The notes beneath the pieces are model-generated. The model ran no database searches, was not told the DNA's origin, and saw only the letters and a program-made list of their open reading frames with translations. From a virus, in IMG/VR virus record IMGVR_UViG_3300048114_000341, positions 1 through 41,711 of that record: a DNA stretch of 41,711 nucleotides, one strand, 5' to 3'. Both the position numbers and the translations under genes were made by a program. Shown in pieces: positions 4,383 to 32,655 of the stretch; the stretch's first letter is position 1; each line of letters begins with the position of its first letter.

Positions 4383-5441
4383 TTACGTACAATCTCGGAC
4401 TGGCAGTGTGCTGAGGTCCACGTGCTTAGACTCCAATCCGTCGTCGAGTACACGGTACTGGCGCTGGTTCCTCTCCTCGACGATCTCGATTAAGTCGTAC
4501 GCGCCGAGTTTCGCGAGCTTATTTCGGCGACTCCGTTTCCCGACTGGCGCGACGGGTAGCCCCTCGTAGACGCGCTCGGCAATACGCTCATACCGGTCGT
4601 GGACCTCCCCACCCGAGCACGCTCCAGCCTCGCGGACGATCTCGTACAGGACGTGGTGATGCACGGGCAGGCTCTCGAGATTCGATGCGCGGATCCGGCC
4701 GCGGGCGCGCTGGTAGCAGTCCTGGACGTCACTGGGTTCGATGGTCGGATGCCCGCGTTCATCAGCAATTTCGGCGGCCGCCCGCAACGACTGGATGCCC
4801 CAGCGGGCAACGCCAGCGACGGTATCCGCGATGGACTCTAATTGGCCGCGAGACACCACCCCCGCCTGCAGTCCCTCCTGAGCGCGCGCCTCAAGGATGT
4901 CCGCCAGCTCCGCGCTGGTAAAGCGATCCACCTGCAGCCGAATACTGAACGGCGCATCAGTACGGGACTCGAACCTGGTTTGGTCGTGCGTGACCACGAC
5001 GACAGACACCCACCGACACCGCGACAGTGCATCAAGCACGTCCGTACTGGGGAGGTCGTCGGCCTCGTCGAGGACGACCACGTACGGCCGCTGGGTTGCG
5101 TCCGCAAGCAGCTCGGGGAGCGCCTCGACCGGCGTCGAATGCGACACGCCCACGTCGCTGGGATGCTCGTCGATGATGTCACGGAGAATCGACCCGGTGC
5201 GTTTCCCCATCGCGCGCACGAACCCGGTGTCCACCTGCCCGAAGTCGCTGACGTCCTCAAGGCCGCTCTTTGCGAGCGCGGTCTTGCCGACCCCTGAGGG
5301 GCCGGCGAGGAGGACGTACTCGCTGGGATTGCCGCGCGTGATCGGTTCGAACCCGCGCGCCAGCTCCCGTTTTTCGGTGTGCCTGTGGAGGAGGGTGTCG
5401 GGGAGGTGGTCGTCCTCGAAGACCCGAGGCCGAGTGATCAT
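4383..5441 (-). CDS. cdc6: Orc1/Cdc6-family replication initiator
   Basis: A 352-residue AAA+ protein of the archaeal Orc1/Cdc6 family. Walker A is at about residues 47-54 (GPSGVGKT), Walker B at about 121-128 (VVVLDEAD), and a lid follows RFTSAELADIL. The C-terminal winged-helix region includes the PVHHHVLYEIV helix. Family members bind origin boxes and load MCM; the virus also has its own MCM. The start is the ATG at 5439-5441, because TTTTATC on the minus strand (5464-5470) sits 23-29 bases upstream, as for a leaderless transcript. An inverted repeat at 5500-5541 lies just beyond. It converges with the subtilase gene with only 12 bases between stops. Confidence 0.92.
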   Translation of the reverse strand: MITRPRVFEDDHLPDTLLHRHTEKRELARGFEPITRGNPSEYVLLAGPSGVGKTALAKSGLEDVSDFGQVDTGFVRAMGKRTGSILRDIIDEHPSDVGVSHSTPVEALPELLADATQRPYVVVLDEADDLPSTDVLDALSRCRWVSVVVVTHDQTRFESRTDAPFSIRLQVDRFTSAELADILEARAQEGLQAGVVSRGQLESIADTVAGVARWGIQSLRAAAEIADERGHPTIEPSDVQDCYQRARGRIRASNLESLPVHHHVLYEIVREAGACSGGEVHDRYERIAERVYEGLPVAPVGKRSRRNKLAKLGAYDLIEIVEERNQRQYRVLDDGLESKHVDLSTLPVRDCT

Positions 5442-7215: not shown

Positions 7216-7658
7216 CAGGCATCGACCTCCACGGAGATCCCGTGCAGCTCGCGGAGCGCGTCCTCGATCGCCTCGGTCACCGGCGCACTGTGGGGCGTGA
7301 CGTACTCACCATCAACCGCGATACTCCCCATCAGACCCTTCGGCGTCACTTGGAGGCCATCCGCGGTCTCGGTGACGCTGGCGTCGTAGGTCCGGGAGAC
7401 GCGGCGCGCACCATCCGCACGGACGTAGAGGACGTGGACGCGCCAGGTCTCGCCGCGGCCATCCTGGTGGCCGGCGAGGACGTCGGCGTTGGCGAGCGTG
7501 CGTTCGATGGTCGCGAGGACGGCGTAGTACTCGGTTTCGCCCTCACTGAGGTCGGCCTTGGGGGCGTCCTGCAGCCACTCGGTGGGGATCTGCTGGGGGT
7601 TGGTTTCCCTGTGGAAGGATGCGTTACGGTCTTGGGCGTCGGGTTGTTTCGTACTCAT
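7215..7658 (-). CDS. Hypothetical protein, first gene of the early minus operon
   Basis: A 147-residue soluble protein and the first gene after the divergent switch region. An N-terminal disordered stretch (STKQPDAQDRNASF) precedes helix ETEYYAVLATIERTLANADV and a beta-sheet with TWRVHVLYVRADGARRV. No known domain is recognised. A TGCTGG-AGTAA-CCAGCA hairpin at 7658-7674 reaches the first base of its start codon, so its translation or transcription may be controlled there. As the first gene under the putative repressor, it may be an early lytic function. Confidence 0.72.
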   Translation of the reverse strand: MSTKQPDAQDRNASFHRETNPQQIPTEWLQDAPKADLSEGETEYYAVLATIERTLANADVLAGHQDGRGETWRVHVLYVRADGARRVSRTYDASVTETADGLQVTPKGLMGSIAVDGEYVTPHSAPVTEAIEDALRELHGISVEVDA

Positions 7659-7826
7659 GCTGGTTACTCCAGCACGGTCAGGCGCGTTGTAGCGCGCCGG
7701 GCCACTTTCTGCGGCCGCGTCCCGTGCTCACTTACTCGTAGTACTCCCGCCACCATAAACCTTTGGTCCGTAAGTTATTGCTTGCAGGCCGTAAACTATA
7801 CATCGCAGGCGACAGAATAGTGGTTC
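7659..7826. promoter_or_regulatory. Divergent switch region between early operon and repressor-like gene
   Basis: A 168-bp gap with two back-to-back promoters. The plus-strand TATA-like ACTATAC is at 7795-7801, about 30 bases before the ATG at 7827. The minus-strand TTTATGG is at 7753-7759, which would start a leader of about 70 bases. Between them are direct repeats GGTCCGTAA (7765-7773) and AGGCCGTAA (7786-7794), 21 bases apart. The predicted minus leader contains GGCGCG-TTGTAG-CGCGCC (7681-7698) and a second hairpin at 7658-7674. The layout suits a repressor acting on both promoters. Confidence 0.6.
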
Positions 7827-8330
7827 ATGAGCGCAAAGCCATCGCCAGTGCTCGACCCTGGCGAACTCAACGACACCGACGAAGCACTCCTCGACCTCCT
7901 CCACGACGGCCGAGTGACACCACCCTACGCCGCCGACGAACTCGACAAAAGCCGCGAGTACATCAGCGAACGCCTCATCCGACTCAAAGAACACGACGCC
8001 GCAAAGCGAATCGCTCCCGGCCTCTACGAGCTTGTGGAGGACCCGCGCGCCGAAGAGGGCGACCAGAAAACGAACGTCCCGACCAGGGACGTCGTCGACG
8101 ACTACCTCTGGGAACACTACGACGTCGGCCTCGACGAGCTCGAAGATCTCCGCGCCGAAAAGCAACGCCTTGAACGCGAACTCCACACGGCGGACGCACA
8201 GGATCGTGTGGACGTCGACCGGGTGGCGCGTGCGTTAGACCAAGCGGAAACCGCTGCGGAGCGTGGTGATCCGCAAGCACTCCAAGACGCCCTCGACGAC
8301 GCCCGCGAGGCACTCCAGGATGGTGCGTGA
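7827..8330 (+). CDS. Winged-helix repressor-like protein with C-terminal coiled coil
   Basis: A 167-residue protein. Residues 14-70 form a winged helix: DEALLDLLHDGRVTPPYAA, then recognition helix KSREYISERLIRLKEHD, then wing IAPGLYEL. This resembles the phiH1-type repressors of temperate haloviruses. Residues 95-165 are a charged helical region (LRAEKQRLERELHTAD, DQAETAAERGD) likely to dimerise. It is transcribed away from the early operon across a region with direct repeats. I infer that it maintains lysogeny; a general MarR-like regulator is the alternative. Confidence 0.8.
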   Translation: MSAKPSPVLDPGELNDTDEALLDLLHDGRVTPPYAADELDKSREYISERLIRLKEHDAAKRIAPGLYELVEDPRAEEGDQKTNVPTRDVVDDYLWEHYDVGLDELEDLRAEKQRLERELHTADAQDRVDVDRVARALDQAETAAERGDPQALQDALDDAREALQDGA

Positions 8331-18624: not shown

Positions 18625-18701
18625 GAGTTCGTGAAAACGTGTGTGTCGCGTGCCGGCAGTCCTCGACCCTCCGGGCTTCAGGGCGTCATCAGGACCGCGT
18701 G

Positions 18702-19883
18702 TTAGTCAGCGGGCTGTTCGCGAGTATCCGGGCGGAGGCCTGGCATCGACTCCCATTTCCTGTGGCAAGGGATGCAAAGGGCTACAAGGTTGCTTACCGC
18801 GTTTCGCTTTTCTGGATCGTCGAACTGTCTAGCCGGGATAACATGATGAACGTGGAGCTTCCGGTTACACCAGTCTAAGTGGTCTTCTTGGGGCATTCCA
18901 CAGTCCTCGCATTGGAAGTCGGCATGGGAGCGGACTTTGCGGCGTTTTTTGGGCGTCCAACCCTTCCCGTAGTCCAATCTTCCCCCCTCCCACTGATGAT
19001 GGGCTGGGCCAACCTGGTTTTCAGCCATCCACTTATTGTGGCATTCGGGCGAACAGAAGTCCTGTTCACTCCTTTCAATTCTTGCGGGGGGCTTGTAGTC
19101 AGTTCCGCCACACCAATCACACTCAATCTCAATACTGTTCCACTGCGGGTGGTTTGGGCCTGTGTAAGTATTGGGTTCTGGGTGGCTATTTTCACTCGAT
19201 TTGTAATTCCCGTAGCATTCCCCATCACAGAAGAAGTTATCTGTTTGTTCAACGCGGGAGGGAGTGACTTTCTTTTCAGTACCACAGTAGGCGCATTCGA
19301 CGGTGACTTTGCCACCGTTCCATGCGGGTTGTTCTTCAGGAGGGAGAGTCGACTGGTGATTCTCGCGGCATTCAGGGGAACAATAGTGGTAGTCATACCG
19401 GCCCATCTCAGATTTATATTTAGTTGTTTGCTCTCCGCAGTTGTCACATGGAACTGCTTGTTGTGCCGTATATTCCCCATGTACATTCGCACAGTGGGTG
19501 TTTTTCGCCTTTTCTGAGTTAAATGAGAACTGGCATTGTGGACAATCGTAAGGTCCGTCCACTTCCGCCTTCAACCCCCATGCGTGAATATATTCCTGAA
19601 TGTTACTCTCCGAACGATCCAACGCTTCGGCAACCTCGGACGGAGACATCTCTTGGTCAACAAATAATTCTTCAACTTTCTCCTTGGAGATGTCTCGCTT
19701 TTGCCCATGCCCGCCATCAAAGCGCGCCTCAATATCATTTCTAAACATCCAATTTCCGACTGTTCTGCCTGAACAGCCAAGGAGATGTCCGGCCTCATCT
19801 TGCGAGAGGTGTTTTTCGTGGTATGCCCACCGAAGGGTTTCCTCGTCTTGCCAGGGTTTGACGTCGCGCCGGGTTTTGGGCAT
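18702..19883 (-). CDS. HNH endonuclease with zinc knuckles (cassette 1)
   Basis: A 393-residue protein. The N-terminal 55 residues are a helix-turn-helix (ETLRWAYHEKHLSQDEAGHL, CSGRTVGNWM). Four Cys-rich knuckles follow (CPQCQF, CDNCGEQ with YCSPEC, CAYCGTE with FCDGEC, CDWCGGT with FCSPEC). The C-terminal HNH domain has CEDCG, HVHHVIPARQF at about 344, Asn361/365 and CIPCHRKW. Homing endonucleases of this type cut DNA to promote spread of their own gene. It is AT-richer than the tail genes. The first and last parts closely resemble the cassette 2 protein, while the middle is diverged. Confidence 0.88.
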   Translation of the reverse strand: MPKTRRDVKPWQDEETLRWAYHEKHLSQDEAGHLLGCSGRTVGNWMFRNDIEARFDGGHGQKRDISKEKVEELFVDQEMSPSEVAEALDRSESNIQEYIHAWGLKAEVDGPYDCPQCQFSFNSEKAKNTHCANVHGEYTAQQAVPCDNCGEQTTKYKSEMGRYDYHYCSPECRENHQSTLPPEEQPAWNGGKVTVECAYCGTEKKVTPSRVEQTDNFFCDGECYGNYKSSENSHPEPNTYTGPNHPQWNSIEIECDWCGGTDYKPPARIERSEQDFCSPECHNKWMAENQVGPAHHQWEGGRLDYGKGWTPKKRRKVRSHADFQCEDCGMPQEDHLDWCNRKLHVHHVIPARQFDDPEKRNAVSNLVALCIPCHRKWESMPGLRPDTREQPAD

Positions 19884-19888
19884 AGGTG

Positions 19889-20119
19889 TTAGTCCTCCTC
19901 CTCTCGGCAGACGACGTCGCGGAGTTCTTCGAGCAGTTCGGGGTCGTGTTCTTCGAGGACGTCGACGTCGTCCTCAAGAGCCTCCAGCCGGTCGCGGAAG
20001 AACGACCGAGTCTTGTAGCGGTACGAGTCGGAGGTCTCGCCGGCGATTGCCTCGCGTTCGCGTTCGGTGAGGAGGCCGCGTCCTTGGGACATGGCCTCGT
20101 GTTCGGTGGGTGCTTTCAT
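19889..20119 (-). CDS. Small conserved haloarchaeal protein, GRGLLT type (cassette 1)
   Basis: A 76-residue charged helical protein containing GRGLLTEREREAIAGE, a motif I recall from short haloarchaeal proteins of unknown function, and a C-terminal EEHDPELLEELRDVVC that is almost the same in the cassette 2 copy. It is 5 bases upstream of the HNH gene and probably cotranscribed. It lies beside the operator-bearing promoter, so it may be the regulator or an accessory to the endonuclease. Alternative start Met10 at 20092. Confidence 0.7.
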   Translation of the reverse strand: MKAPTEHEAMSQGRGLLTEREREAIAGETSDSYRYKTRSFFRDRLEALEDDVDVLEEHDPELLEELRDVVCREEED

Positions 20120-20224
20120 ACTTCATTCGGTAATACTCTCCCCACCACCTTGTACCTTTCCCAATACAGTAAGCCTTTCTGTATTCGGTAAGGTTAAGTG
20201 GCTGGGGCTTATTGTATACAGTAA
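20120..20224. promoter_or_regulatory. Divergent promoter with palindrome and third half-site (cassette 1)
   Basis: AATACAG (20163-20169) and CTGTATT (20179-20185) form a dyad. The decamer ATACAGTAAG of the left arm recurs in direct orientation at 20216-20225, 52 bases on. ATTCGGTAA occurs at 20125-20133 and 20183-20191. A TTAAG element near 20195 is placed as the plus-strand TATA-like element by comparison with cassette 2, so the third half-site would lie between it and the transcription start. Confidence 0.6.
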
Positions 20225-20296
20225 GAAGCGCGGGACTGCCACAGGAAAGTGGACGGGCGCTTGGACGCCCGCCCGCGCTTCGGCAACCACCGAAGC
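20225..20296 (+). ncRNA. Structured leader: three-way junction with alternative hairpin (cassette 1)
   Basis: P1: GAAGCGCGGG (20225-20234) pairs with CCCGCGCTTC (20272-20281). P2: CCAC/GTGG (20239-20242, 20249-20252), loop AGGAAA. P3: CGGGCG/CGCCCG (20254-20259, 20266-20271), loop CTTGGA. P4: GCTTCGG (20277-20283) pairs with CCGAAGC (20290-20296), which ends one base before the ATG at 20297. P1 and P4 share a strand and exclude each other. Cassette 2 has the same plan with changed sequence. Confidence 0.65.
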
Positions 20297-20596
20297 ATGT
20301 CAACGAACGCTTCCGGGTCATGTAAGACTGACCCCACGACCGCGAACCGGCGTACCGACCCGCGACCAACCTACATCCGCCTCGGCGTAGACACCGAGCA
20401 CGCTTCGCACGTCTACCGCACGACCGACGAAACCATCCACGTCGTCGACGCGGACGGCAACCGCGAGCACGTCGAAGCCCTCGACGGCCGCAGCGTCCAC
20501 GAATGGATGGACTACGTCCGAACGGAGCGCGGCTGGACGACCCAGTACATGTTCGACTCCCCCGGCAACGCCATCGCCGCCACCCTCGACCCATGA
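20297..20596 (+). CDS. Cassette 1 first plus-strand protein
   Basis: A 99-residue protein starting MSTNASGSCKTDPTT. The first 15 codons are almost identical in DNA to those of the cassette 2 counterpart, while the rest is unrelated. The later part (IRLGVDTEHASHVYRTTDET, then IHVVDADGNREHVEALDGR) looks like a small alpha/beta domain, ending in a helix with an aromatic patch (VHEWMDYVRTERGW). No known family. The ATG at 20297 is directly after the P4 hairpin of the leader, so its translation may be controlled by that switch. Confidence 0.72.
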   Translation: MSTNASGSCKTDPTTANRRTDPRPTYIRLGVDTEHASHVYRTTDETIHVVDADGNREHVEALDGRSVHEWMDYVRTERGWTTQYMFDSPGNAIAATLDP

Positions 20597-20709
20597 CCGA
20601 CGACACTTGCGTCGGCCCCGAACTACAGGAATGCCCCGTGTGTGGCGCGGTCGGCCTCCCCGAACGCATCGACGACCACGACTGCCAGCGATTCCTCGAC
20701 AGCCTATGA
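20593..20709 (+). CDS. 38-residue zinc-finger microprotein (cassette 1)
   Basis: A 38-residue protein with a finger CPVCGAVGLPERIDDHDC. It overlaps the previous stop and the next start as ATGA. Of 38 residues, 36 are the same in the cassette 2 protein at 23544, far more than for the other genes of the pair, so this gene is under strong constraint or was recently exchanged. A single-finger protein may bind nucleic acid or act as an adaptor; the exact role is unknown. Confidence 0.78.
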   Translation: MTDDTCVGPELQECPVCGAVGLPERIDDHDCQRFLDSL

Positions 20710-21086
20710 CCGAACTCGACTTCGACAACCTCGACGACATCGAACCACGCGGCGACGACTGGGCAACCATCGAACTCGAACTCACCCAGCCCATGCTCAA
20801 GTGGCTCCTCCTCGAAAAACGCGACCACTACAGCGTCCCAGAGTGGATCGCCGAGACAGTCCAACTCCGCCTTGAGGAAGACCTCCACGGCACCATGACC
20901 GCCGGCGAAGTCGACGTCGCCATCCCCCACGAAATCCTCGAACGCGCCACCTACAAATACCGAGACTGCCAAGCCCGCGGCATCGACGTCAACCCCGACG
21001 ACTTCCTCTTCAACTACGTCCACTTCGACGTCAACTGGATCACCGAACACGGCAACCCCATCGAATGGGCAACTAACGACGACTAA
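20706..21086 (+). CDS. RHH-like cassette protein (cassette 1)
   Basis: A 126-residue acidic protein. Residues about 20-55 (ATIELELTQPMLKWLLLEK, then SVPEWIAETVQLRLEED) have the strand-helix-helix order of ribbon-helix-helix DNA-binding proteins. The C-terminal 60 residues (IPHEILERATYKYRDCQ, FNYVHFDVNWI, NGNPI-like end HGNPIEWATNDD) are conserved with the cassette 2 paralogue. It may be the operator-binding regulator of the cassette. The TAA is followed at once by a terminator hairpin. Confidence 0.7.
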   Translation: MTELDFDNLDDIEPRGDDWATIELELTQPMLKWLLLEKRDHYSVPEWIAETVQLRLEEDLHGTMTAGEVDVAIPHEILERATYKYRDCQARGIDVNPDDFLFNYVHFDVNWITEHGNPIEWATNDD

Positions 21087-21106
21087 CCCCGTAGCCCGGG
21101 GTTTTT
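21087..21106 (+). terminator. Terminator after the cassette 1 plus operon
   Basis: CCCCG (21087-21091), a 5-base loop, CGGGG (21097-21101), then T5. It follows the TAA of the third plus gene directly. Confidence 0.75.
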
Positions 21107-21133
21107 CTTGTGGCGTCGTTGGCGTAGACATCG

Positions 21134-21658
21134 TTACAAATCCCGGTGTCCTTTAAATACTACGTCCGCGTCCCAGCGGTAGAAATCCGCCCACTGCTGG
21201 CTGGTGTTCACCTCATTCTGCAACTCCAAGTGCGGGTAGGAGACGTCCGCGGGGCCGGCGTCCGGCCACTTGCGCTCCGAGAGGAGTGCGTCCTTGCAGC
21301 GCTGGACGAGGCCGCCGTCGCCAGTGAACGGGATGCCGTCCTCGCCGCTGGGGTCGATGTGGCCGTACGAGCCCTGGGCGGTAAGCCCCGTGACGCGGAC
21401 GCCGACGACGACCTCCCGCTGGAGATCATACTGGCTGCCCATCGGCTCCTCCACAGTGTCGACGTGGGTAGCGCCGACGAACGCCGCCTGCTCCAGGTCG
21501 CCCCTGATGGATTGGACGTCCTGCTCGAGGAGTCGGGACTCGTCCCGGTTCACGCGCTCCAACTCGACGGGGTCGCCACTCTCGAGCGTGTACTCGTTGG
21601 CGACGTCTGTTGCGACGCTCGCGAACTGCTCGAGGACCCAGGCGGTTTCTGCGGTCAT
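21134..21658 (-). CDS. Tail terminator-like or tail completion protein
   Basis: A 174-residue protein lying between the two cassettes. In the uninterrupted late operon it would fall between the HK97 gp10-like gene and the tail tube gene, where tail terminator proteins are found. The N-terminal helix (TAWVLEQFASVATDVANEY), a central strand region (DLQREVVVGVRVTGLTAQ) and the C-terminal FYRWDADVVFKGHRD fit the small alpha/beta fold of that family. Membrane segments and motifs are absent. A short frame at 21655-21690 overlaps its ATG. Confidence 0.65.
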   Translation of the reverse strand: MTAETAWVLEQFASVATDVANEYTLESGDPVELERVNRDESRLLEQDVQSIRGDLEQAAFVGATHVDTVEEPMGSQYDLQREVVVGVRVTGLTAQGSYGHIDPSGEDGIPFTGDGGLVQRCKDALLSERKWPDAGPADVSYPHLELQNEVNTSQQWADFYRWDADVVFKGHRDL

Positions 21659-21690
21659 GTGGCGGTAGCTCTCTGTAGGGTGGTGTTCAT
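21655..21690 (-). pseudogene. Short 3' remnant frame at the left edge of cassette 2
   Basis: An 11-codon frame (MNTTLQRATAT) with its stop overlapping the next ATG as CACATGACC, the same junction as at cassette 1. It may be the 3' end of a small gene split by cassette 2, whose 5' end would be the ATG at 24031 (MIKES...), which itself overlaps the upstream stop as ATGA. Confidence 0.35.
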
Positions 21691-21748
21691 CGTCGTGAGA
21701 AATCTCGCTGCAGGTCCTCGCCCCCTCCGGGGGTCATCGGCGGGCGTG

Positions 21749-22957
21749 TTAGTCGGCAGTCTGTTCGCGGGTATCCGGCCGGAGTCCGGGCATCGACTCC
21801 CACTTCCCGAGGTGGCAGCTCCGGCAGAGCGTAATCAGGTTCGCCATCGCGTTCCGCTCCTCGGGTTCGTCGAACTCCCGAGCCGGCACCACGTGATGCA
21901 CATGTGGTTTTTCCCCGTGCTCTTCGACGTGGTCGGCTTCGGTCATCCCACAATCCTGGCACCGGGCCTGGTCACGAACGCGGACCTTCTTTCGCTTGGT
22001 GTCATTCCAGCCTTCGCCGTACGGCTTGACACCACCTTTCCAATTCGGATGGTCGGACCCAGTCCAGCGGTCGCTGTAGTGTTCCGACAGCCATTCTTTC
22101 CGGCACTCAAGTGAGCAGAATCTACGTTCTGCCCGGCCTATCTGCCAGGGAGCGAGTTCAATTTCCTCGCCGCATGTATGGCAGTCTACCACACTCTTTT
22201 CTTCCCAGTTTGGATGATCGGGGCCCGTCCGTGAACTGGACCACTCTTCCATGCACTCCTGCCCGCAGAACCGCCGATGAGTCTTCGATGGATAGACCTC
22301 GAAGCTGTCGCCGCACCACTCGCATTCGAGTGTGACCAGCCCGTCGATCTCCCGCCCCGGGAAGTCCTCCGGGATGGGCTTACAGTCACGGGAACAGTAC
22401 CGTGCGGTCTCCTCCCGGCAGTTGAGGACTTCGAAGTCCTCGCCGCACGTCTCACAGGTTTTCGTCACGCGGTCTTTGAGGCGTTCAGCCGCACAAGACC
22501 GTGAGCAGGTTATCTGCCGGGAATCGGTCGGCTTGAACTCTTCGCCGCAGACCGGACAGTCGCGGGGTTCACCGGCCGCCCCATGGTATGACCGCCCCCC
22601 TTTCCAGTTCCAGTGATCCTCGCCAGACTGGGAACGGTCGCGAGTTTCGAGGTCGTGCTCATCGCACCACCGAGAGATAGTTGCGATGCCGGTGTCCCAG
22701 GCGTCGGCGAGTTCGCTCATCGGGCGTTCCTTCTCGATGTACTCGCGTTTGAGAGTCTCTTTGTCTCGCCACGGCCCTTCCCGGTTGGGGCCTGGGTCAG
22801 CTTCGATACCGTACTTGTCCATCCGGTATCGTATAGCCCCGCCAGAGCAGCCCAACAAGTCGCCAACTTCTCTGCGGGATTTGTCTTTCTCGTGGTACGC
22901 CCATTCGAGAGTTTCCTTGTCCTGCCAGGGTTCGACGTCGTCGCGGGTTTTGGGCAT
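21749..22957 (-). CDS. HNH endonuclease with zinc knuckles (cassette 2)
   Basis: A 402-residue paralogue of the 18702 gene. The ATG at 22955-22957 gives the opening MPKTRDDVEPWQD, matching MPKTRRDVKPWQD in cassette 1. It has two helix-turn-helix segments near the N-terminus (LLGCSGGAIRYRM and DTGIATISRWCDEHD), at least four knuckles (CPVCGEE, CETCGED, CEWCGDS, CHTCGEE) each with a second Cys pair, and the HNH domain with CQDCGM, HVHHVVPAREF at about 352 and CRSCHLGKW. All catalytic His and Asn positions are kept, so it should be active. GC is closer to the viral average than in cassette 1. Confidence 0.88.
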   Translation of the reverse strand: MPKTRDDVEPWQDKETLEWAYHEKDKSRREVGDLLGCSGGAIRYRMDKYGIEADPGPNREGPWRDKETLKREYIEKERPMSELADAWDTGIATISRWCDEHDLETRDRSQSGEDHWNWKGGRSYHGAAGEPRDCPVCGEEFKPTDSRQITCSRSCAAERLKDRVTKTCETCGEDFEVLNCREETARYCSRDCKPIPEDFPGREIDGLVTLECEWCGDSFEVYPSKTHRRFCGQECMEEWSSSRTGPDHPNWEEKSVVDCHTCGEEIELAPWQIGRAERRFCSLECRKEWLSEHYSDRWTGSDHPNWKGGVKPYGEGWNDTKRKKVRVRDQARCQDCGMTEADHVEEHGEKPHVHHVVPAREFDEPEERNAMANLITLCRSCHLGKWESMPGLRPDTREQTAD

Positions 22958-22959
22958 GG

Positions 22960-23184
22960 TTAGTCCTCCTGGCAGACGACGTCGCGGAGTTCTTCGAGCA
23001 GGTCGGGGTCGTGTTCTTTGAGGTGCTGGATGTCCTCTGCGAGCGGGCCGTCGAGGCGCGCGCGGATTCGGGAGCGGGCTTCGTATTCGCGCTGTTTTTC
23101 GTGTTCGCCGGCGAGGCAGTCGCGTTCGTAGTCGGTGAGGATGCCGCGTCCAGTTCCCATGGACGTCTGGTTTGTGGTGCTCAT
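22960..23184 (-). CDS. Small conserved haloarchaeal protein, GRGILT type (cassette 2)
   Basis: A 74-residue protein with GRGILTDYERDCLAGE and C-terminal KEHDPDLLEELRDVVC, aligned with the 19889 protein. It has many charged residues and is predicted all-helical. It lies two bases upstream of the HNH start. Start ATG 23182-23184; Met9 at 23160 is possible. Because operators differ between cassettes while these proteins differ mostly in the middle, they are candidates for the operator-reading proteins, as are the RHH-like proteins. Confidence 0.7.
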   Translation of the reverse strand: MSTTNQTSMGTGRGILTDYERDCLAGEHEKQREYEARSRIRARLDGPLAEDIQHLKEHDPDLLEELRDVVCQED

Positions 23185-23285
23185 ACAATTCGGTGTTGGT
23201 GACGTAGGCCCATAAATGGGCCGATACAACCAAGGTTGGTTGTATAGGCCAAGTTTTATACTGGCTGGGCACATACAACCAAGTA
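23185..23285. promoter_or_regulatory. Divergent promoter with palindrome and third half-site (cassette 2)
   Basis: ATACAACCAA (23224-23233) and TTGGTTGTAT (23236-23245) form a perfect dyad with a GG centre. ATACAACCAAG recurs in direct orientation at 23273-23283, 49 bases on. TTTTATA (23254-23260) is the plus-strand TATA-like element, so the third half-site lies at the expected transcription start. A second palindrome, GGCCCAT-AA-ATGGGCC (23207-23222), overlaps the minus-strand TATA-like region. Confidence 0.65.
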
Positions 23286-23361
23286 GGAACGCGGGGTGCC
23301 GCAGAAAGCGGCCCGGTGCTAGAACACCGGACCCGGGTTCCCAACGAGTAGCCAAGAACCC
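23286..23361 (+). ncRNA. Structured leader: three-way junction with alternative hairpin (cassette 2)
   Basis: P1: GGAACGCGGG (23286-23295) with CCCGGGTTCC (23332-23341), one mismatch. P2: GCCGC/GCGGC (23298-23302, 23308-23312), loop AGAAA. P3: CCGGTG/CACCGG (23313-23318, 23325-23330), loop CTAGAA. P4: GGGTTC (23335-23340) with GAACCC (23356-23361), ending at the ATG at 23362. Compared with cassette 1, pairs in P1, P2 and P3 change on both sides, keeping pairing. Confidence 0.65.
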
Positions 23362-23541
23362 ATGAGTACGAACGCTTCCAGGTCATGTAAGACTGACCCC
23401 ACGACCCACCTAGACGGACCGTACATCGAACCACTCGCCCAAGGCGGCCGACGCTACTACCGCTGCCCCGACTGTAATCGGGAAGTCCTCGCCGACGGCG
23501 TCCAGAACTTCGACCACGCCCCCGGCTGCCAGCACACCTAA
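23362..23541 (+). CDS. 59-residue zinc-finger protein, first plus-strand gene of cassette 2
   Basis: A 59-residue protein starting MSTNASRSCKTDPTT, as in cassette 1, then an unrelated zinc-finger domain with YRCPDCNREV and FDHAPGCQH. The shared 15-codon opening with different continuation points to recombination just after codon 15 or to strong selection on the RNA of the first 45 bases. The ATG abuts the P4 hairpin. A gap of two bases separates it from the next gene. Confidence 0.72.
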   Translation: MSTNASRSCKTDPTTHLDGPYIEPLAQGGRRYYRCPDCNREVLADGVQNFDHAPGCQHT

Positions 23542-23543
23542 CC

Positions 23544-23660
23544 ATGACCGACGACACTTGCGTTGGCCCCGAATTACAGGAGTGCATGGTGTGTGGTGCT
23601 GTCGGGCTGCCCGAACGCATCGACGACCACGACTGCCAAGCCTTCCTCGACAGCCTATGA
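23544..23660 (+). CDS. 38-residue zinc-finger microprotein (cassette 2)
   Basis: Differs from the cassette 1 protein at only two of 38 positions (CMVCG for CPVCG, CQAF for CQRF). The finger CMVCGAVGLPERIDDHDC keeps all metal ligands. It overlaps the next start as ATGA. It is the best-conserved gene of the pair, which marks it as central to the module. A related finger ends the protein at 6540-6884. Confidence 0.78.
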   Translation: MTDDTCVGPELQECMVCGAVGLPERIDDHDCQAFLDSL

Positions 23661-23989
23661 CAGGGACGCGGATTATCGAGATCGAGGTCACCGAACCGCT
23701 CGCCGACTGGATCGAACTCGAAGCCCGCGACGACGAAACCGTCTCGGACTACATCGAGCGTGCGATTCGCCTGCACCTCGACGTCAAACTCCCCCGCATG
23801 GAGGCGCGGGAAGCCACCGTCGAACTGCCGCAGCCACTTCTTGAGCGCGCCATGCTGAAATACCAGGACCAGCAAGCACTCGGCTACGACCCCGACATGG
23901 ACGAACTCCTCTTCAACCACGTCACCTTCGACGTCCAGTGGACCACCGAAAACGGCAACCCCATCCAGTGGACAACTAACGACGACTAA
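23657..23989 (+). CDS. RHH-like cassette protein (cassette 2)
   Basis: A 110-residue paralogue of the 20706 protein. It lacks the acidic N-terminal extension and starts close to the ribbon strand (TRIIEIEVTEPLADWIELEA), followed by a helix (VSDYIERAIRLHLDVK). The C-terminal domain (LPQPLLERAMLKYQDQQ, FNHVTFDVQWTTENGNPIQ) is conserved. The ribbon-helix-helix region has diverged more than the C-terminus, which suits a change of DNA specificity together with the diverged operators. Only a weak hairpin follows the stop. Confidence 0.7.
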   Translation: MTGTRIIEIEVTEPLADWIELEARDDETVSDYIERAIRLHLDVKLPRMEAREATVELPQPLLERAMLKYQDQQALGYDPDMDELLFNHVTFDVQWTTENGNPIQWTTNDD

Positions 23990-24027
23990 CCCCCTACCAG
24001 GGAACTTCCCCATCGTCGATTCTTTTA

Positions 24028-31060: not shown

Positions 31061-32655
31061 AGATGGGTGACCGCGCCTCCACTGTCGTCGTCATCGCTGT
31101 CCTCGTCGAGCGCGCCGATGCCTTCGAGGTGGCGGATGCCCTGCTCGGCCATGTACCACGCCGCGATGAGGTCCGGCGTGTGCCCCTGCAGCTTCCCGTC
31201 CTGGAGCGTGAGGCTCATCGCCGCCTGCACGAACTCCTCGGTCCCCGAGTGCCCTCGGTAGAACTGGATGCCGCCATTCTCGACGAGCCGCCGCAGCCGC
31301 GGGATGCCGTTCTCCCAGCTGTGTTTCTTGCCGGTCGTCGGGATGCCCGTGACCTTCGCACGCAGTGACGCCGAGAACTCGACGGCGTCGTTCGCAACGT
31401 ACTGCTGCATTCCATTATTCTCGATGACGACGACGGCCGGGTCGTAGCGGTCATCGAGGTCCGCCAGCGTCGCCTTCACCTGCGAGGGCTGCATCCCCTG
31501 CTCGGCCTTCGCCTCCAGGAGGCGACGACGTCCATCCGAGCCAACGCGGAACGCGACGAACGCCGCGTTGTCGCCAGTGTCGGACTGCGCTGGGTCGTGC
31601 GCGACGATCGTCGCCTCCCCTTGGCCGGGCGTGAGTTCCCGGGGCGGCGACTGGCCGCGAATCGAGCAGCCGCCGTCGTCGACGAGCTGGTTGACGTCCG
31701 CCTCTTCGATGAGGTTCCCGCTGGCGCCGCGGATGGTGAGCGTGTACTCGCGCCAGAAGAGGTAGTCCGCCATCTTCGAGCGCTTGTCTGCGAGCCAGTC
31801 GGGGCCACGCGCGTCCGGCCACAGCACCTGCAGCGTCCCCGAACCCCACGGATTCTGGACGTCCGCGTAGAGGTCCTCGTCGGGGCGTCGGTCCTGCCAG
31901 TCGTCGTCCTCACGGAACTCCTGATCCCAGATGTCGAGGATGGCCGGGAACTCTCGGAGCGCGTAGCCTTCGTAGTCGCGGTAGTGCGACCAGATGTCGT
32001 CCGGGCGCTTGCGGGTGCCGACCATCACGGTGCGGCCGTCGTCTTTCACCATCGGCTGCGCGACGCCGTCCACCCAGTTGACGACCTCCGACGTCGCGCC
32101 GTCACCGCGCTCCTTGATGATGTCGTCGTGGATGAGGACGTGTGCGCGAGCGCCCTCGACCGCCCCGAACAGCCACGCCGTCGTCAGGGAGGCGTCGTGG
32201 TGGAACTCCTTGACCTTCTTCGAGTCCGTCTTCCGCGGCTTGTTCAGGTTGATCAGCCACGGGTTGCGCTCGATGAACTTGTTGAGCTCGCGGTCGGCCT
32301 TCTCGTAGGCCTGCTCCTGGGTGTTCATGCACCAGATCGCGCGGAACCCCGGCTTGTACTCCAGGCACGCGATCAGGTACGTCGTGACAATTGTCGTCTT
32401 GAGGCCGTCCCGGTGGCAGAGGAGTGCGAGGTCCCCAGAGACGTCTGCTTCGCCGGCGATGTGGCGGAGCCACTGCGCGTGGTGGTCGCCGAGCGGGCTC
32501 CACGGGTCGGGTTCGGCCTGCATGTAGCCCTCGGTGAGCTTGTTCGCGAACTCCAGCCAGCACCCATGCTCGAAGGGATTGTACGCGGCACGAATCTCCG
32601 ACCGGGAGAGATCCACCTCGACGCCATCGCCGGCGCTATCCTGAGTACTACTCAT
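31057..32655 (-). CDS. terL: Terminase large subunit
   Basis: A 532-residue packaging motor. The ATPase part has a deviant Walker A, CHRDGLKTT (about 80-88), and Walker B with HVLIHDDI (about 172-179). The RNase H-like nuclease part has TIVAHDPAQSDTGD and AVVVIENNGM with the acidic metal ligands, and HTPDLIAAW near the end. Length is normal and no intein is present. ATG 32653-32655 is used; GTG at 32664 is possible. It cuts and pumps DNA into the head together with the small subunit upstream. Confidence 0.92.
   Translation of the reverse strand: MSSTQDSAGDGVEVDLSRSEIRAAYNPFEHGCWLEFANKLTEGYMQAEPDPWSPLGDHHAQWLRHIAGEADVSGDLALLCHRDGLKTTIVTTYLIACLEYKPGFRAIWCMNTQEQAYEKADRELNKFIERNPWLINLNKPRKTDSKKVKEFHHDASLTTAWLFGAVEGARAHVLIHDDIIKERGDGATSEVVNWVDGVAQPMVKDDGRTVMVGTRKRPDDIWSHYRDYEGYALREFPAILDIWDQEFREDDDWQDRRPDEDLYADVQNPWGSGTLQVLWPDARGPDWLADKRSKMADYLFWREYTLTIRGASGNLIEEADVNQLVDDGGCSIRGQSPPRELTPGQGEATIVAHDPAQSDTGDNAAFVAFRVGSDGRRRLLEAKAEQGMQPSQVKATLADLDDRYDPAVVVIENNGMQQYVANDAVEFSASLRAKVTGIPTTGKKHSWENGIPRLRRLVENGGIQFYRGHSGTEEFVQAAMSLTLQDGKLQGHTPDLIAAWYMAEQGIRHLEGIGALDEDSDDDDSGGAVTHL

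Follow-up and report, generated by a model that had tools for sequence, protein, structure and literature searches.

HNH-linked cassettes in the late operon of a haloarchaeal tailed virus: probable mobile early-control regions with a structured leader RNA

Organisation of the two cassettes

The late genes of the 41.7-kb virus genome in IMG/VR record IMGVR_UViG_3300048114_000341 (all 41,711 nucleotides of which are here called the window) lie on the minus strand and include those for the terminase, the portal and a minor tail protein. Their operon is split by two blocks, cassette A (about 18660-21086) and cassette B (about 21716-23989), with a single late gene that belongs to neither, P0008 (21134..21658, minus strand; phrog_25153), between them. 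An earlier sequence-only reading had recognised two diverged copies of a six-gene module around a divergent promoter at this place; both blocks are confirmed, as is their shared layout around the promoter, while the gene count comes down to five genes and a leader RNA in each. On the late strand each cassette carries a gene for an HNH endonuclease and one for a regulator of 74-76 residues (the 75-residue regulator type). The other strand carries the leader, orf1, the gene for the zinc-finger protein ZF38 and a gene for an RHH-like protein, in frames that overlap or abut, and the two gene groups diverge from a short stretch in which AT-rich sites are repeated.

The endonucleases of cassette A (393 residues; 18702..19883, minus strand) and cassette B (402 residues; 21749..22957, minus strand) match the Pfam HNH domain above its gathering score (E=1.8e-7 and 2.2e-7, respectively) and phrog_8446 (E=1.2e-38 and 4.5e-52); in the A protein an N-terminal helix-turn-helix (HTH)-like region and treble-clef fingers precede the C-terminal HNH domain. 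Directly 3' of each HNH stop codon, a kink-turn-like hairpin (18661..18690 in A and 21716..21738 in B, both minus strand) marks the end of the cassette. The regulators, of 76 residues in A (19889..20119, minus strand) and 74 in B (22960..23184, minus strand), both match phrog_26393 (E=7.6e-24 and 1.1e-22). The divergent promoter regions that follow contain putative operators, namely repeated ATACAGTAAG-type sites in A (20120..20222, plus strand) and, unlike these, a ATACAACCAAG-GTTGGTTGTAT palindrome in B (23185..23283, plus strand).

The remaining features are on the plus strand. Leader A (20223..20299) scores 41.7 bits (E=1.4e-7) and leader B (23284..23364) 65.8 bits (E=8.7e-14) with the covariance model R1 described below, of whose seed B is a member. 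In A the leader runs into orf1 (99 residues; 20297..20596; phrog_32485, E=3.2e-13), followed by ZF38 (20593..20709) and the RHH-like gene (126 residues; 20706..21086); their counterparts in B are an orf1 of 59 residues with a CxxC motif, related to gp35 of the virus HJTV-4 (23362..23541), ZF38 (23544..23660) and an RHH-like gene of 110 residues (23657..23989).

Comparison of the two cassettes indicates that their parts have diverged to very different degrees. The sequence-only reading was right that the ZF38 copies are nearly the same (36 of 38 positions identical, two different) and that the middle regions of the endonucleases and the operators have drifted apart: the HNH proteins share 39% identity overall with conserved ends, the regulators 49%, the RHH-like proteins 49% (E=2e-33), and the promoter repeats are of the ATACAGTAAG type in A and of the ATACAACCAAG type in B. 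The orf1 genes resemble each other only in their first 15 codons, where a block of 39 nucleotides (20303..20341 and 23368..23406) is 97% identical at the DNA level and contains the RNA hairpin P5 (about 20315-20334 and 23381-23398). Regulator A shares 67% identity with those of loci L033 and L020, and regulator B 70-71% with those of L010 and L027; since each is closer to outside regulators than the two are to one another, the regulator/operator half of the cassette has a history other than that of the ZF38 side. Across 25 loci, with pairs of up to 85% identity, the sharing of 7-mers between promoters rises with regulator identity (r=0.51; 0 of 500 permutations), and the site sharing among putative operators tracks the regulators.

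Cassettes A and B and three further ones described below (L010, L098 and L142) contain ZF38 or a protein related to it, and ZF38 also occurs in ordinary early operons. The RHH-like label could not be confirmed, there being no Pfam match and a low-confidence structure model (predicted local distance difference test, pLDDT, 57.7); used as a single query, this protein found no relatives in the viral contigs and phages, and the functions that such names suggest for the small genes are putative. In Natrinema versiforme (L044, 5776-6222) a 75-residue regulator appears to have an HNH domain fused to its N-terminus, and a second regulator gene lies immediately before it.

A structured leader RNA with two exclusive pairings

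The sequences that diverge from the regulator gene at about 45 loci show a common leader fold. In this fold stem P1 encloses P2 and P3 in a three-way junction, a further stem, P4, ends 0-3 nucleotides before the AUG, and P5 lies within the coding sequence. Eleven sequences, not including leader A, went into the covariance model R1, whose search of 582 kb returned 38 matches at E<=0.1, nearly all at the expected place. A MAFFT alignment of the leaders had misplaced P2, and the matches that the model itself had found were therefore used to construct it anew (alignment A6, model R2). Fifteen of the 18 base pairs show changes on both sides (117 cells, 91.4% standard pairs), counts that lean towards the model because the alignment was fitted to it; in the seed alone 11 of 18 pairs have such double changes. 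The covariation score of 0.553 compares with 0.183+-0.015 for shuffled alignments (0 of 500 as high) and with at most 0.111 for slid controls. The innermost positions of P3 (for example in window 23284-23364) frequently hold C/A or U/G, potentially wobble pairs of similar shape. Rfam gave no match at its gathering score in the window or at eight further loci, and nothing relevant at E<=1; as judged by these comparisons, the leader is an RNA family absent from Rfam.

The 5' arm of P4 is the 3' strand of P1, and because the same strand is used the two stems cannot form together. Shuffling of the tails proved a blunt test of P4, since automatic folding at times picked this stem, and the tails were instead swapped between sequences: the mean P4 stem score among 48 non-redundant leaders is 15.4, against 9.66+-0.52 with swapped 3' arms (0 of 1000). 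The pairing is preserved in quite different versions, including GCUUCG/CGAAGC, GGGUUC/GAACCC, GCUGUC/GACAGC and UGCUGG/CCAGCA. By computation the P1 and P4 conformers come out at similar energies, P4 being preferred in some leaders (A and B and a third leader of the window at 7656) and P1 in others, with a gap of 0.8 to 8 kcal/mol. The sequences thus predict two alternative conformers of the leader around the AUG, only one of which can form at a time.

P5 usually begins 14-16 nucleotides after the AUG with stems that differ between leaders, its mean score being 12.7 as compared to 9.03+-0.65 for shuffled sequences (whose highest mean was 10.5). Since the cassette at L015 retains P5 even though its orf1 frame is closed, the near-identity of the 39-nucleotide block in A and B points to conservation of the RNA rather than of the peptide. 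In eukaryotes, a hairpin about 14 nucleotides downstream of the AUG is known to aid start-codon choice (Kozak); that the same might hold in haloarchaea is our conjecture.

Distribution of the leader and its repressor-like partners

With R2 (E<=0.001) the leader is found in 151 of 292 Halobacteria genomes, as against two of 143 genomes of the class to which a bacterial metagenome-assembled genome with a match is assigned. One of these two is that assembly itself (L041, SLKC01000190.1, labelled Ectothiorhodospiraceae), whose contig carries a haloarchaeal-type regulator along with the leader and is probably misbinned. At every one of 35 additional leader loci, which include a few from related or identical viruses, a small repressor-like gene diverges from the leader: in 17 it is the 75-residue regulator, and in 18 another small open reading frame (ORF) that is winged-helix-like by eye. 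The window has such an early-control region of its own (7656-8330), in which the third leader (7656..7732, minus strand; R1, 33.6 bits, E=1.7e-5), ahead of the early operon of the virus, faces a winged-helix-type repressor (7827..8330, plus strand; transcriptional regulator phrog_2440, E=9.2e-7). Similarly, the main early leader of HJTV-4 faces a MarR-like gene. Comparison across loci reveals a leader whose repressor-like partner gene is exchangeable. The virus of L010 (G001) has, apart from its strong cassette leader at 21850 (plus strand), two more leader matches, at 5352 (weak) and 10091 (both minus strand), beside winged-helix-like genes.

To the sequence-only reading, the fixed set of regulator, leader RNA, zinc-finger microprotein and RHH-like protein looked like a defined, self-regulated mobile system. 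That the regulator, leader and zinc finger belong together is borne out, as each of the 12 best ZF38 matches in the 292 Halobacteria genomes has a leader no more than 1.5 kb away, but these parts are not confined to the selfish element: in many haloarchaeal viruses and proviruses they form the normal early-control region, mostly with no HNH gene.

In phiCh1 the leader model finds the start of transcript T4 (R2, 16.7 bits, E=7e-4, the best in a targeted stretch of 601 nucleotides), and for both phiCh1 and phiH1 a P1 of 15 pairs can be drawn; the T4 start site of phiH is annotated. To our knowledge, no structured-leader function has been described for the rep-T4 region of phiH or phiCh1, and no description of the present leader fold was found in the literature searched, the reach of which did not extend to the older phiH papers. 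The Imm protein of phiH1 was considered as a homologue of the 75-residue regulator and rejected, as its sequence differs by eye and looks HTH-like. At imm-T1 of phiH1 (L056, 16263-16583) a leader of 151 nucleotides diverges from the 75-residue gene imm, and neither resembles the regulator and leader families treated here.

Recurrence of the cassette and empty sites

The full unit recurs in seven cassettes from six viruses, i.e. window A and B together with HJTV-4, L010, L015, L098 and L142. In HJTV-4 (the same virus is in L018) it comprises gp33-gp38, flanked by a tail gene and the tape measure gene. The L010 cassette is downstream of a probable tape measure gene and that of L015 directly after a P0008 homologue, the tape measure and tail assignments in these two being made by similarity and size; the L098 cassette precedes the tape measure gene and the L142 cassette a tail-like gene. 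In the six cassettes that can be compared with late flanks on the same strand, the HNH and regulator genes are co-oriented with the late genes, and the cargo genes differ from cassette to cassette. A DNA search of the cassette region against phage records and a scan of IMG/VR with an exact 20-nucleotide motif yielded no match.

The kink-turn-like hairpin (GATGAC...CGAGG with flanking pairs) lies within about 80 nucleotides 3' of the HNH stop in all seven cassettes. Its strict pattern occurs once in the window, at B (0.02 expected by chance), the A hairpin being a looser form. A scan of viral contigs for the pattern led independently to L142, which had the remaining cassette parts, though on its own the pattern is unspecific, with at least 120 viral matches, eight of them well formed, and only L142 beside an HNH-regulator block. 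Similar GATGAC...CGAGG hairpins stand among other late genes (window 34728 and 28908, both minus strand; L055 5320; L015 2242; L010 7565), one of them 11 nucleotides 3' of the L015 portal gene.

When occupied and empty sites were compared, as the sequence-only reading had suggested, a close relative of the window virus (L055; 88% nucleotide identity over 9.5 kb) was found to be without both cassettes at the collinear sites. At the B site the homologue of P0009 directly meets that of P0008 in an ATGA overlap; at the A site, P0008 is followed by an ORF of 84 residues and then the tail gene, so that this site is not perfectly clean. Outside the compared region a single leader was found in this relative, a weak match (E=0.0035) at position 32603 that belongs to the virus's early operon. 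The claim of a defined mobile system with fixed parts is hence upheld to the extent that a recurrent unit exists and that both window sites are empty in a relative. The neighbourhood searches that it invited split, with ZF38 near leaders in every one of the best cases and, among the 30 best chromosomal HNH homologues, mostly solitary genes and only one (1/30) beside a regulator and leader; most regulator/leader units likewise are without an HNH gene.

Interpretation and alternatives

Taken together, we consider it likely that the cassettes are mobile, HNH-linked miniature versions of viral early-control regions, inserted between the late genes of haloarchaeal tailed viruses. The regulator would bind the repeats of its own cassette and repress the divergent early promoter, much as Rep acts on T4 in phiH and phiCh1 (repression of T4 by Rep in phiH: PMC4284463), and the differing repeats of A and B would keep the two cassettes from cross-repression. 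The leader may switch translation of orf1 and the overlapping genes, the P1 junction exposing and P4 closing the region before the AUG, with P5 perhaps pausing the ribosome near the start codon. The endonuclease, finally, would cut empty alleles, upon which the cassette could be copied in by recombination repair. With somewhat less assurance, we lean towards a broader proposal, in which the leader would represent an undescribed class of switching RNA that spans the start codon and serves as a shared early-gene control element of haloarchaeal tailed viruses and proviruses; repressors would have been exchanged around it, and it would have been packaged with HNH genes into mobile mini-regulons of separate operator specificity, with other viruses' late operons as their insertion sites.

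Several observations weigh against these proposals. No target-site duplication was recognised at the window and L055 sites, and the 84-residue ORF at the A site of L055 means that cassette A may have replaced DNA. As most HNH homologues and most regulator/leader units occur apart, their association may be one of recurrent assembly and not a single lineage. The regulator is without a recognised DNA-binding fold (a three-helix model with pLDDT 81, no PDB match and no Pfam HTH match), and the correlation between operators and regulators (Mantel test) includes a contribution of shared ancestry. The T4 match in phiH1 (R2, 10.5 bits, E=0.017, the best in a targeted stretch of 470 nucleotides) is weak alone, and in an untargeted search the phiCh1 match is not significant (E=0.81 in 72 kb).

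Ordinary recombination might have displaced or duplicated early regions of other viruses into the late operon, with the HNH gene being a separate selfish gene that came to adjoin the repressor by chance. The frequent occurrence of the leader and repressor-like gene without HNH, and of HNH homologues alone, would fit such a history, as would the presence in phiH1 of an HNH gene within the operon that follows repR and the closer relationship of each regulator to ones elsewhere (67-71%) than of A to B. We nevertheless hold it to be rather unlikely, given that all seven cassettes repeat the order of HNH, regulator, leader and small genes, have a hairpin after HNH and are sited in the tail operon, that L142 was found via the hairpin alone and had the remaining parts, and that L055 has the sites without either cassette. 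It is improbable, too, that the cassettes serve as toxin-antitoxin or anti-virus defence cargo, in which the role of antitoxin or effector would fall to ZF38 and the RHH-like protein: small genes that regulate themselves and have an early promoter to themselves look like such a unit, and an RHH-type fold, here putative, would suit an antitoxin, but no defence or toxin family was matched in Pfam, PHROGs and NCBIfam (PADLOC was not searched), and ZF38 is equally found in ordinary early operons.

A more serious contender, if still one that we doubt, concerns the leader itself, which could be a fixed structure and not a switch, stabilising the 5' end of the early mRNA or acting as a site of RNase or antisense control like that of phiH T1. 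The early T1 mRNA of phiH is indeed processed with an antisense RNA (PMC4284463), and late read-through across a cassette would yield RNA antisense to the leader. Against this, the 3' arm of P4 covaries with the competing strand of P1 (0/1000), which a fixed fold does not need, and P5 keeps a nearly constant distance from the AUG.

If a switching leader is indeed at work, this conserved and apparently bistable element, found at virus early promoters and in roughly every second haloarchaeal genome, would provide archaeal virus development with a general control point that lies outside Rfam. It gives a sequence-level reason to re-examine the T4 leader of phiH, and bears on how leadered viral mRNAs that have no clear Shine-Dalgarno site start translation in haloarchaea, in which the majority of mRNAs are leaderless (72% in Haloferax volcanii; PMC7531240). 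The cassettes, for their part, would exemplify a selfish nuclease that carries a complete self-regulated expression unit.

Comparison with known systems

The cassettes resemble the free-standing HNH homing endonucleases of T-even-type tailed phages in being intergenic and present in one virus while absent in a relative; those are usually single genes, whereas the nuclease here travels with a repressor, operators, a leader RNA and cargo. With riboswitches and other cis-acting 5' leaders the RNA shares a covarying structure and a pair of alternative stems near the start codon that exclude one another. It differs from them in belonging to archaeal viral early operons, in reaching past the start codon into the coding sequence with P5, and in having no known ligand and no Rfam counterpart.

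In the rep-T4 immunity region of phiH and phiCh1, too, a small repressor gene and an early transcript diverge, the latter starting with a folded leader; the T4 leaders fit the P1-P2-P3 fold, that of phiH weakly, and an alternative of the P1/P4 type can be drawn by eye. That region differs from the cassettes in its winged-helix Rep in place of the 75-residue regulator, its longer leader before the AUG, its position in the main regulatory region instead of the late operon and its want of an adjoining HNH gene. HJTV-4 gp33-gp38 (OP374082), annotated as hypothetical proteins, departs from the window cassettes in lacking ZF38, in having an extra ORF, gp37, annotated between regulator and HNH, and in its third small gene, whose similarity to the RHH-like gene is distant, but offers the same full layout in the same place, with homologous HNH and regulator genes and, in gp35, a relative of orf1 B.

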